This document shows, one piece after another, positions 2,500-48,853 of a stretch of 64,000 nucleotides of DNA. Each line of letters begins with the position of its first letter. Position 1 is the stretch's first letter. The notes beneath the pieces were generated by a model, which saw only the letters and a program-made list of their open reading frames with translations, had not been told where the DNA came from and did not search any database. A program made the translations under genes and the position numbers. Origin of the DNA: Hydrogenothermus marinus (lineage in GTDB: Bacteria > Aquificota > Aquificia > Aquificales > Hydrogenothermaceae); assembly GCF_003688665.1 (NCBI RefSeq), contig NZ_REFO01000010.1:62001-126000 (forward strand), written 5' to 3'.

Positions 2500-3257
2500 T
2501 GGATTTAGCTATTGAAGTAAAAAATCTTACAGTTAAATATGGAGAAAAAGTTGTTTTGCAAGATATAAATTTGAAAATTAAAAAAGGAGAAATTGTTGCT
2601 ATTGTTGGTCCAAATGGTAGTGGGAAAACAACTCTTTTAAAGACTATACTTGGATTTATAAAGCCTGTAATTGGAGAAGTAAAAATACTTGGAATGCCAA
2701 ACAAAAAGGCAGTTAAAACAGGCAAAATAGGATATCTACCTCAAAAATCACCAGTAAAAAACTCTTTTCTATCTGCTTTAGATGTTGTTTTATTTGGGCT
2801 TATAAACTCTAAACTTTCAAAAAAAGAGAAAATAGAGAAAGCTTTAGAAACTTTAAAATTAGTTGGAATGGAAGATTTTGCAAATTATCCATATAGTAGT
2901 TTATCAGGTGGACAACAACAAAGGGTTTCTATTGGAAGAGTTATAATATCAAATCCTGAAATAGTTTTTTTAGATGAACCTTCTACTGGAATAGATGTTG
3001 TAGCTCAAGAAAGTTTTTATGATTTTATGAAAAAGTTAAGAGATGAAAAAGGAATGACTATAGTTATGGTTTCTCACGATATAGGGGTAATAGGAAGTTT
3101 TGTTGATAAGGTGGTAGGTCTTAATAGGTATCTTCATTATTTAGGGGATATTAAAGGATTTTTAAATAAAGATGTTTTAGCAAAGCTTTATGGTTCAGAA
3201 GTTAAATTGCTTATTCATTCTCCAGAATGTATTACTTGTGATAAGATACAAATATAA
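2499..3257 (+). CDS. znuC: Metal ABC transporter ATP-binding protein (ZnuC/MntB-like)
   Basis: 252 residues with all ABC ATPase motifs: Walker A GPNGSGKTT near residues 38-46, signature LSGGQQQR near 136, Walker B IVFLDEPS and the switch His in VSHD. The subfamily call (zinc/manganese uptake rather than another ABC class) rests on similarity of the early region and on the ABC-3 permease gene 224 bases downstream. The C-terminus carries a Cys pair (SPECITCD) that could touch metal. No periplasmic metal-binding subunit (ZnuA) is present here, so it must be encoded elsewhere. The exact metal is inference. Confidence 0.8.
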   Translation: MDLAIEVKNLTVKYGEKVVLQDINLKIKKGEIVAIVGPNGSGKTTLLKTILGFIKPVIGEVKILGMPNKKAVKTGKIGYLPQKSPVKNSFLSALDVVLFGLINSKLSKKEKIEKALETLKLVGMEDFANYPYSSLSGGQQQRVSIGRVIISNPEIVFLDEPSTGIDVVAQESFYDFMKKLRDEKGMTIVMVSHDIGVIGSFVDKVVGLNRYLHYLGDIKGFLNKDVLAKLYGSEVKLLIHSPECITCDKIQI

Positions 3258-3272
3258 TTAATCTGTGTAATC

Positions 3273-3472
3273 ATGGATAAAGACCAGCAAGAAATAGAGC
3301 TTAAAAAGTTAGAGATAGAAAAAGCTAAAGTTTTAGAAGGCCAGTTTAGAGTTGGTAGTTATGAATAGTTCAAATATTAGGAATAATGCTTGGTTTAATT
3401 ATATTAATAGGATTTGGCTATATGGCTTGGATAAGCTATAAAACAGATAAAGAAATGGAAAGTAAAAAATAA
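3273..3472 (+). pseudogene. Small ORF pair, possibly one frameshifted small membrane protein, between znuC and znuB
   Basis: Two short frames lie in the 224-base gap between the ATPase and permease genes. The first (3273-3368) encodes a 31-residue charged helix starting MDKDQQEIELKKLEIEKAK and ending GSYE-stop. The second, shifted by -1 (open from 3365, first ATG 3386, stop 3472), encodes a hydrophobic stretch LGLIILIGFGYMAWISY followed by a charged tail KTDKEMESKK. Joined near 3363 they would make one tail-type membrane peptide of about 67 residues. I do not recognise the family. It may be a true frameshift, a sequencing error or two micro-genes. Confidence 0.4.
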
Positions 3473-3481
3473 GAGACTTTA

Positions 3482-4291
3482 ATGATTGAAATTTTACAAA
3501 TTCCTTTTATGCAAAATGCTTTAATAGGTGGAATTATATTAGCTATACTTCTTTCAGTAATTTCTTTATTTATAAATGCTAAAAACTGGTCTTTTATATC
3601 TGTTGGTATATCTCATGCAACCTTTGGTGGCCTTGCAATAGGTTTTTATTTAGGTATAAACCCTACTTTAGTTGGTGGTTTGTTTGCTGTTATTGTAGGT
3701 CTTTTAATTGGGTATATTAGTAAGCATGGTAAAATTCATGAAGATATATCCATAGGAATTCTTTTCTCTTTCTCTATGGCTTTTGGTGTTTTAATAATGT
3801 CTAAATCTCCTAATTACAATACTGATTTATTTACATTTTTATTTGGAAATATTTTAACTATTACAGATTTAGATATTAAGATTTTAATAGGTTTTACTAT
3901 TTTTTCTCTTGGATTTATTTATATTTTTTTTCAGAAAATATTATATTGCTGTTTTGATGAAGATGTAGCTTATACTTCAGGTATAAATACTTCCTTTTTT
4001 TATTATAGTCTTATAACTATTATATCTATAGCTACTGTTTTATCTGTAAAGCTTGTTGGTGTTATACTTGCATCTGCTATGATGATACTTCCTGCAACTT
4101 TTGCTAATCAGTTTTTTTGGCATTATAAAAAGATTTTATTTTTTTCTATATTATTTAGCGTTTTTATTGTTGTGATTGGGATTTTTATATCCTATTATTT
4201 TGACTTTCCTGCAGGTACATTTATTGTATTTTTATACACTTTAATATTTGGAATAGTTATTTTAATCAAAAGGATTTTTAAATTCAGCTAA
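3482..4291 (+). CDS. znuB: Metal ABC transporter permease (ZnuB/ABC-3 family)
   Basis: 269 residues, almost entirely hydrophobic with about eight predicted membrane segments. The ABC-3 pattern is visible: an early ISHATFGGLAIGFYLG segment, a cytoplasmic GINTSFFYY coupling region, and a later SVKLVGVILASAMMILPA segment. It would form the membrane channel of the zinc- or manganese-type importer whose ATPase is encoded just upstream. The last 30 bases of the gene overlap the 3' end of the convergent thioredoxin-domain gene. The metal specificity cannot be decided here. Confidence 0.85.
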   Translation: MIEILQIPFMQNALIGGIILAILLSVISLFINAKNWSFISVGISHATFGGLAIGFYLGINPTLVGGLFAVIVGLLIGYISKHGKIHEDISIGILFSFSMAFGVLIMSKSPNYNTDLFTFLFGNILTITDLDIKILIGFTIFSLGFIYIFFQKILYCCFDEDVAYTSGINTSFFYYSLITIISIATVLSVKLVGVILASAMMILPATFANQFFWHYKKILFFSILFSVFIVVIGIFISYYFDFPAGTFIVFLYTLIFGIVILIKRIFKFS

Positions 4292-46298: not shown

Positions 46299-47930
46299 CT
46301 ACTGGGCACAACAAGAGAGCTTTGATATATCCTTTTTAAAACTTTGAGCACAAAGTTTTATAGATTCTGATAAAGTAGGATAAACATCAACTGCTTGTAT
46401 TATATCTTCAATAGTAAGCCCGTATTTAATTATAAATACAGCTTTATGTATAATCTCTGCAGCATGAGGACTGAGAATATGTATACCTAAAACTTTACCT
46501 GTCTTTTTATCAGCTATCATTTTTATAACTCCTTTTGTCAGAAGACTTAACGCTGCTCTTGGAACTTTAGAAAAATCAAGAACTCTAATTTCTACTTCAT
46601 ATCCCATTTCTTTAGCTTCTTTTTCTTTTAATCCTACTGAACCGATTTCAGGATCAGTAAATATTGCATGAGGAACGGATAAATATTCTACTTTATTTTT
46701 GTTTCCTAAAAGAGCATTTTCTGCTGCTATACCTCCTTCCATTGCTGCAACAGTAACAAGCATTTTCTTTCCTACACAATCTCCAGCTGCATATATATCT
46801 GAATTTGATGTTTGCATATAATCGTTAGTTTCTATAAAACCTCTTGGATTTGTATTTACTCCAACAGTTTCAAGACCTATATCCCTTGTGTTAGGTGTTC
46901 TTCCAGTAGCTACAAGGATATCTGTTCCTACTATTTTATATTTTTTGCCATTTAATTCGCATTCTAAAAATATTTCATTACCATTTTCAAATACATTTTC
47001 TATATTAACATTAGTTAGTATGTTTAAGCCTTCTTCATTAAGAATTTTATGTAATTCTTTTCTTATTTCTGGTTCTTCTACCATCGCAATTTCTGGTAAA
47101 GCTTCAACAATAGTTACTTTACTTCCCATTCTAAAGAATGCTTGTCCAAGTTCCAAACCTATAGCTCCACCGCCAATAATTATCAAATGTTTTGGTAAAT
47201 GATCTATGTTAAATATATCATCACTTGTATAGTATTTGACTTTAGAAAGATTTTTTATAGGTGGAATACCCGGTCTTGCTCCTGTTGTTATAACTGCTTT
47301 ATAAAAGCTTATTTTGTCCTTTCCTACCTGTGCTAATGTATTACCTACAAACCTTCCTCTACAATCTCTATACTCTATCTGAGGATAAGCATCAAGAATA
47401 TTCCAGTATTTTTCTTTTCTAAGTTCATTTAATAAATCTTCTTTTTCATTAATAACTTTTTTTATATCTATTTCTCCTTTTTCAAGTTTAATACCAGAAA
47501 ATGGGTTTTTTAAAGGTGTATAAAATGTATTTGCTACTTCTATAAGATATTTAGAAGGTACACATCCTCTATTAAGACAAGTTCCTCCTATTATATTATC
47601 TTCAGCCACTAAAACTTTTGCACCTAAATCGGAAGCTTTTATAGCTGCAGCAAAACCTGCAGAGCCACCTCCAAGAATAAATAAATCATAAATATCTTTT
47701 TTTGGAATATATATTTCTGGAGATTCTTTTATAACTTGAGCTCCATATCCAGCTTTTTCTACTGCTTTTATTAGTTTTTCTACTGAAACTTCTTCTTTAG
47801 TTTCTATTTCTGCAAATCCTTGAGGAAAATATACTTTAGCTTCTTTTACTTCTTTAACTGATTCTAAGGCTTTTTTAACTGTTTCAGCACAATGCTCACA
47901 AGTCATTCCTATTATTCTAAGTTTTATCAT
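46299..47930 (-). CDS. merA: Mercuric reductase MerA with N-terminal HMA domain
   Basis: 543 residues from the ATG at 47930, 10 bases after GAGGAGG; a TTG at 47948 includes that site and is rejected. The N-terminal heavy-metal domain has IGMTCEHC (Cys11, Cys14). The flavoprotein core has the redox pair in GGTCLNRGCVPSKYL, FAD and NAD loops (LFILGGGSAGFAA; LIIIGGGAIGLELG), and TAGDCVG-like YAAGDCVG. The C-terminus LSCCAQ has the vicinal Cys pair (540, 541) that hands Hg(II) to the active site, which separates MerA from other pyridine nucleotide oxidoreductases. It reduces Hg(II) to Hg(0) with NADPH. Confidence 0.93.
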   Translation of the reverse strand: MIKLRIIGMTCEHCAETVKKALESVKEVKEAKVYFPQGFAEIETKEEVSVEKLIKAVEKAGYGAQVIKESPEIYIPKKDIYDLFILGGGSAGFAAAIKASDLGAKVLVAEDNIIGGTCLNRGCVPSKYLIEVANTFYTPLKNPFSGIKLEKGEIDIKKVINEKEDLLNELRKEKYWNILDAYPQIEYRDCRGRFVGNTLAQVGKDKISFYKAVITTGARPGIPPIKNLSKVKYYTSDDIFNIDHLPKHLIIIGGGAIGLELGQAFFRMGSKVTIVEALPEIAMVEEPEIRKELHKILNEEGLNILTNVNIENVFENGNEIFLECELNGKKYKIVGTDILVATGRTPNTRDIGLETVGVNTNPRGFIETNDYMQTSNSDIYAAGDCVGKKMLVTVAAMEGGIAAENALLGNKNKVEYLSVPHAIFTDPEIGSVGLKEKEAKEMGYEVEIRVLDFSKVPRAALSLLTKGVIKMIADKKTGKVLGIHILSPHAAEIIHKAVFIIKYGLTIEDIIQAVDVYPTLSESIKLCAQSFKKDISKLSCCAQ

Positions 47931-47944
47931 AGTTTGTTTCCTCC

Positions 47945-48088
47945 TCAAAATTTAGTTTTACCTATAATCTTACCTTTATAATGTCCAGCTTTTAGTATAT
48001 TTTTAATATTGTCATCTCTTACAACTACTGCTATATGTATACATCAAGAAACAGCAAGTAAAGATACAATGGTACCTAAATCTTTAAT
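47945..48088 (-). pseudogene. 48-codon frame between csoR and merA, ATT start and in-frame TGA
   Basis: The frame starts at ATT (48088), 8 bases after GGAGG formed by the csoR 3' end. It runs KDLGTIVSLLAVS, then TGA (codon 15, 48046-48044), then CIHIAVVVRDDNIK, and ends GHYKGKIIGKTKF-stop. Its stop is part of TGAGGAGG, the merA ribosome site. So it lies exactly where a small operon gene would. The TGA directly precedes a Cys codon. It may be a decayed gene, a fragment (the end loosely resembles MDR dehydrogenase C-termini) or a selenocysteine gene. I do not recognise a family, and no convincing bacterial SECIS hairpin is visible. Confidence 0.35.
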
Positions 48089-48089
48089 T

Positions 48090-48383
48090 TTAACAACCTC
48101 CTTTTGAAAACTTTTTTACTGCTTGAAGAAAATCTTCTAAAGCTTTAATATCTCCAGCTTCTACTCTTGGTTTCACACAAAATTCTACATGTTCTTCAAG
48201 CAGTCTTTCTCCTACAGATTTAAGGGCAGATCTAATAGCAGAAATCTGAACAAGAATATCATCACAACTTCTTTTATTTTTTATCATTTTTTGAATTCCT
48301 CTAATCTGTCCTTCAATTTTTGATAAACGGGATAGTAATTCCTTCATTGCTTCATCGGAAAGATAAACATCACATTTATTCAT
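48090..48383 (-). CDS. csoR: CsoR/RcnR-family metal-sensing transcriptional repressor
   Basis: 97 residues, all-helical. Metal ligands of the Cu(I)-sensing type are present: Cys40 (RSCDDIL), His65 and Cys69 (EEHVEFC). There is also a Cys at position 4, near the fourth ligand position used by RcnR, and a terminal Cys97. Members repress by binding DNA in the metal-free state. The gene precedes merA by a 48-codon frame, so it probably controls mercury or copper response rather than a MerR-type activator. Its ribosome site (ggggg) is part of the palindromic operator at 48388-48404. Confidence 0.88.
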   Translation of the reverse strand: MNKCDVYLSDEAMKELLSRLSKIEGQIRGIQKMIKNKRSCDDILVQISAIRSALKSVGERLLEEHVEFCVKPRVEAGDIKALEDFLQAVKKFSKGGC

Positions 48384-48387
48384 ACAT

Positions 48388-48404
48388 ATACCCCCTATAG
48401 GTAT
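48388..48404. promoter_or_regulatory. Candidate CsoR operator overlapping the csoR ribosome site
   Basis: ATACC-CCCTATA-GGTAT is an inverted repeat with a G/C-tract core like known CsoR-family operators. It ends 4 bases before the csoR start codon, and its G run on the minus strand is the only ribosome site, so binding would block both transcription and translation entry. Autoregulation of csoR and the merA operon is inferred. Confidence 0.6.
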
Positions 48405-48472
48405 AATTATTTATAATTATAAATTATAGTAAGATAAATAAAACGTCAAGAATTAAATAAGGTATTCTAAAA

Positions 48473-48853
48473 TTAAGCAATCAAAAATAAAAATAAGTGA
48501 AATATTATTAAAAATAAGGCGGTAATAAAAAAGAAAAAAATAACTAAAAGATACATATTATAAATAGCAAAAACAGCTAAACCCATTTTTTCAGCTATTT
48601 CTTGATTTTTTACCCTAAAGTGGGAACCTAATTTCTGTTTTACATTACCAAATAAACTCTCTATTAAATATCTATACCTACCAAACTTATTCCAGCCTTC
48701 TTTTGATTTTTTCCTTAATGGATGTTTTACATTTATCCTAAATGTTTCTTTTACTCTAATAGCTAATTCTATTCCTGATTTTGCTATATCTTCCATTATT
48801 TTAATACTATCAAAATTTTACATCTGACTCTCTATTTTTAGAACAGCTTTAAT
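48473..48853 (-). pseudogene. Transposase remnant (C-terminal part, IS4/IS5-like DDE)
   Basis: The main frame (48796-48473, 107 residues) contains RVKETFRINVKHPLRKK and YRYLIESLFGNVKQKLGSHF, with the catalytic Glu block of DDE transposases, then an aliphatic tail. Upstream, the same frame reads IKAVLKIESQM-stop-NFDSIKIMEDIAKSG, with a TAA at 48818-48820. The first two Asp blocks are missing, so the gene is internally deleted. The AVLK piece matches the start of the scar at 14186-14296. It lies next to csoR-merA, which suggests past mobility there. Confidence 0.75.

Follow-up and report, generated by a model that had tools for sequence, protein, structure and literature searches.

Remains of merT and merP between csoR and merA of Hydrogenothermus marinus point to a recent in-operon deletion

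Comparison with related operons revealed that the short region between csoR and merA in the window (the whole 64,000-nt stretch of Hydrogenothermus marinus DNA that was analysed) is best explained as the scar of a recent deletion of the mercury-transport genes merT and merP within a csoR-merT-merP-merA operon, a reading to which we give a probability of about 95%. Both halves of the region were homologous to these genes, the operon order and spacing of relatives were found around them, the stretch between them was missing, and the genome lacked selenocysteine machinery. A merTP pseudogene should match both genes at their place in the operon and carry inactivating lesions, and the region did both. 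A recent pseudogene had been the second choice of a preliminary description of this DNA; the comparison bore it out and identifies the pseudogene as a merT-merP deletion remnant. The most likely history would be gene loss inside a working operon.

The frame between the two genes lay on the minus strand. It opened with ATT at 48088, carried TGA as codon 15 with TGT directly after it, and closed with TTT TGA ending at 47945, which gave 47 codons and a final stop with the translation IKDLGTIVSLLAVS*CIHIAVVVRDDNIKNILKAGHYKGKIIGKTKF* (asterisks, stops). No ATG, GTG or TTG was present in this frame between 48088 and 47945. The ribosome site ahead of the ATT was formed by the end of csoR (GGAGGTTGTTAA), and the closing TGA (47945-47947) overlapped the ribosome site of merA (TGAGGAGG). 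The ATT start, the TGA followed by TGT and both ribosome sites had been described correctly before, together with the view that the frame was laid out like an operon gene. The layout was indeed non-random, because the MerT match ranked first in the window and the MerP tail was found by both tblastn and a profile, but it was that of a two-gene deletion scar and not of an unknown gene. The remnant is known from the assembled sequence of one strain.

The order csoR-merT-merP-merA was intact in the genome G049 (locus L121), whose merA was the closest found (74% identity), and in five more order-level relatives (L126-L129 and L131; in L126 csoR was aligned only in part). An Aquificaceae metagenome genome (L036) kept the order but had an additional open frame (3189-3551), 120 aa long and without a Pfam match, lying between csoR and merT. 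merP was not found between merT and merA in L124, L130, L132 and L133, and merT was split by apparent frameshifts in L123 (at about 2258, next to CACCCC) and L125 (at about 2130, at an A8 run), which may be real decay, slippage or sequencing error. Measured from the csoR stop and from merA, the remnant had the same place and spacing as the corresponding genes of the relatives. A small gene similar to the frame had been proposed as something to look for; none was present in the relatives read. The merA and csoR of the window were nearer to those of G049, which belongs to another family of the order (74% and 73%), than to the same-genus G005 (merA 63%), and no csoR was found beside the merA of G005. 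This closeness suggests horizontal transfer, as far as sequence identity can indicate it. In the same-genus operon of G005, merP and merA were separated by a frame for a 147-aa protein (L067, 3474-3917) that has a zinc-binding domain of the CopZ type (PF18423).

The first 17 codons of the frame matched the beginning of MerT, and 14 recognisable merT codons were left. The merT start codon of relatives was ATG, or GTG in one, and exactly one base separated it from the csoR stop in seven of the nine relatives compared, likewise in the window. At the csoR-merT junction, the spacing in L130 (GGAGGCTGTTAAAATG) and in the window (GGAGGTTGTTAAAATT) was equal to the base. Therefore, the ATT (48086-48088, minus strand) occupies the place of the merT start codon, and the start was altered from TGTTAAAATG in a relative to TGTTAAAATT in the window. 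The merT remnant LGTIVSLLAVS*CI (48038-48079, minus strand) ran from the start of the first transmembrane segment to the Cys-Cys motif. When a matrix of 14 N-terminal columns built from the MerT N-termini of 13 relatives was applied, this 14-codon stretch ranked first among 127,918 six-frame positions of the window, with a score of 34.5 against 25.5 for the next. Against the MerT of L036 (N-terminus MKELFGSLIGTLASLFAASCCIAP, compared with IKDLGTIVSLLAVS*CI in the window), none of 20,000 shuffles was as good as the remnant. The whole-MerT profile missed the fragment because it was too short. MerT (PF02411) has three membrane segments with the Cys-Cys in the first; in the window part of the first segment was left, and the in-frame TGA (48044-48046, minus strand) aligned with the first Cys codon of the pair. 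Every relative with a readable merT start had Cys-Cys where the window had stop-Cys. A Pfam PF02411 search found no second MerT in the H. marinus genome.

Because the TGA replaced the first Cys of the MerT Cys-Cys pair, the position looked like a Sec-Cys site. The preliminary description had rightly seen a metal-site Cys pair at this TGA and had proposed that the codon is read as selenocysteine, giving a small selenoprotein with a Sec-Cys metal site beside MerA. MerT selenoproteins are known elsewhere, among them the PF02411 entry ABB16073.1 (PMC9312934, PMC13188914) and the NCBIfam family NF045683 (MerT_CopZ_Se). In both those proteins and the window, a TGA lies within MerT-like sequence, as compared at the family level; the former are reported as selenoproteins, whereas the genome of the window was without selenocysteine machinery and most of its MerT was deleted. 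SelA was absent from the H. marinus genome and from all 25 genomes of its family searched, and the same search detected it in another family of the order (six genomes). No SelB match in the genome was above the cut-off; the best (111.7 bits against a cut-off of 242) lay in an 885-codon frame whose size would be that expected of translation factor IF-2. The best SelD match was likewise below the cut-off (66.8 against 125), as was every match to tRNA-Sec in the genome. A TGA suppressor tRNA was also rejected, since all 35 tRNA places read by ARAGORN were ordinary tRNAs and none had a UCA anticodon. Genome-wide reassignment of TGA was rejected because 12 of the 57 open frames of at least 150 codons in the window end in TGA.

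No stable or SECIS-like hairpin was found after the TGA, where the minimum free energy was -3.8 kcal/mol, worse than that of shuffled sequences (mean -6.2, z = +1.23). No Rfam family scored above threshold there; a single weak match was rejected as it was below threshold and to an unrelated viral family. Thus, of the features that mark a bacterial selenoprotein, neither selA, selB, selD and tRNA-Sec above cut-off in the genome nor a SECIS hairpin just after the TGA was found. The checks proposed earlier, for selA, selB and selC and for the residue aligned with the TGA, therefore went against selenocysteine, with Cys at that position in every relative with a readable merT start. The product would also retain little of the membrane part of MerT, would be without the CxxC of MerP, and would have no usual start codon. 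On machinery, structure and relatives, selenocysteine was rejected, and we consider a selenoprotein here to be extremely improbable.

The second half of the frame was the C-terminal end of merP (IAVVVRDDNIKNILKAGHYKGKIIGKTKF; 47948-48034, minus strand) with a further in-frame loss of 18 nt. The MerP-tail residues IAVVVRDDN...KGKIIGKTKF were detected by tblastn (E = 3e-4) and with a profile of the relatives' MerP (E = 2.5e-6), where only the metal-binding domain of merA scored better. The end of MerP read NRIAVVVTEDNVKEDSVLRAISKAGNYKGKVIGKAKF in G049 and HIAVVVRDDNIKNILKAGHYKGKIIGKTKF in the window, and the residue was the same in 21 of the 28 codons compared; 29 or so recognisable merP codons were left. 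The closing TGA (47945-47947, minus strand) was the former merP stop codon overlapping the merA ribosome site, and merP of G049 ended at the same place (TTTTAGGAGG).

Codon comparison with G049 located the deletion junction at 48034-48038 (minus strand). The stretch bounded by the ATG of merT and the stop codon of merP measured 651 nt in G049 and 144 nt in the window, a net loss of 507 nt. The alignment assigned about 15 nt of this to a place near the start of merT, about 474 nt to a segment spanning the boundary of the two genes and 18 nt to the tail of merP. Relative to G049, the loss of about 474 nt took away all of MerT from residue 23 onwards and the first 56 residues of MerP, among them the GMTCxxC motif that marks MerP and the HMA family (PF00403). 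One deletion of this size would have joined the codons just after the MerT Cys-Cys motif to the last third of merP, accompanied by the two smaller losses and by further damage that would have left ATT as the start codon and TGA for Cys in the Cys-Cys pair. Microhomology between merT TGCATAGCT and merP CGCATAGCG, read from G049 as one of several diverged relatives, is a possible basis of the deletion. Among 42 codons aligned with G049, differences fell at 28 third, 9 first and 4 second positions. Such a third-position bias is typical of a gene under selection; the sequence was therefore coding until recently, and the damage is recent relative to the divergence of the operons.

All three length changes kept the reading frame, which under neutral decay would be expected about once in 27 cases, and thus the fused frame may have been translated for some time. 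In-frame losses and the ribosome sites retained on both sides are also what a new functional micro-gene would show, either as a MerT'-'MerP fusion that is still weakly translated, starting at ATT and reading through the TGA, or as a 14-residue peptide kept for translational coupling of csoR to merA. However, a third-position bias is to be expected as a legacy of the period that preceded the deletion, the frame has an internal stop and lacks a usual start and any remaining metal site, and the relatives read carry no such gene. Such a micro-gene is therefore improbable, and the deletion remnant presumably yields no functional product. The MerTP fusion transporter (NCBIfam NF033556) similarly has MerT and MerP parts in one frame, but it is a full transporter of 186 profile positions, whereas little of the membrane part of MerT, and nothing of the metal site of MerP, is left in the remnant.

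Both genes flanking the remnant were intact on the minus strand. The first gene of the operon, csoR (48093-48383, stop codon 48090-48092), encoded a metal-sensing repressor of the CsoR family (Pfam Trns_repr_metal, E = 1.7e-26) and was 73% identical to the csoR of the G049 operon. The mercuric reductase gene merA (46299-47930) had an N-terminal HMA domain and a C-terminal Cys-Cys, and scored 524 bits with TIGR02053 (cut-off 454). Since both frames were open, with ribosome sites retained, csoR and merA are probably still functional. Directly before csoR, a partly palindromic motif TATACCNNTANNNGGTAT (48388-48405, minus strand) was kept in all 11 operons compared (the window, L121, L123-L125, L127-L131 and L036), mostly just ahead of or overlapping the csoR ribosome site, and looks like a putative CsoR operator. 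The C-terminal fragment of a DDE transposase (PF01609, E = 6e-5) lay just upstream of csoR (48473-48796, minus strand).

The window thus shared with the Aquificae mer operon of G049 and L036 the gene order, intact csoR and merA, the csoR-merT spacing and a merP stop codon lying directly against the merA ribosome site, but only 14 codons of its merT and 29 of its merP could still be recognised, a TGA interrupted them and no usual start codon was present. merP and merT are placed in the earliest Aquificales operons, and their later loss has been invoked for archaeal operons (PMC3466566); the remnant is a loss of that kind inside the bacterial order itself. Recognising it disposes of an attractive but false selenoprotein candidate and illustrates that a decaying MerT in which TGA has replaced a Cys codon can pass for a Sec-Cys metal site. 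The remnant also provides a concrete case of recent merT and merP loss beside an intact merA, in which mercury would enter H. marinus without MerT and MerP and would probably still be reduced after entry.
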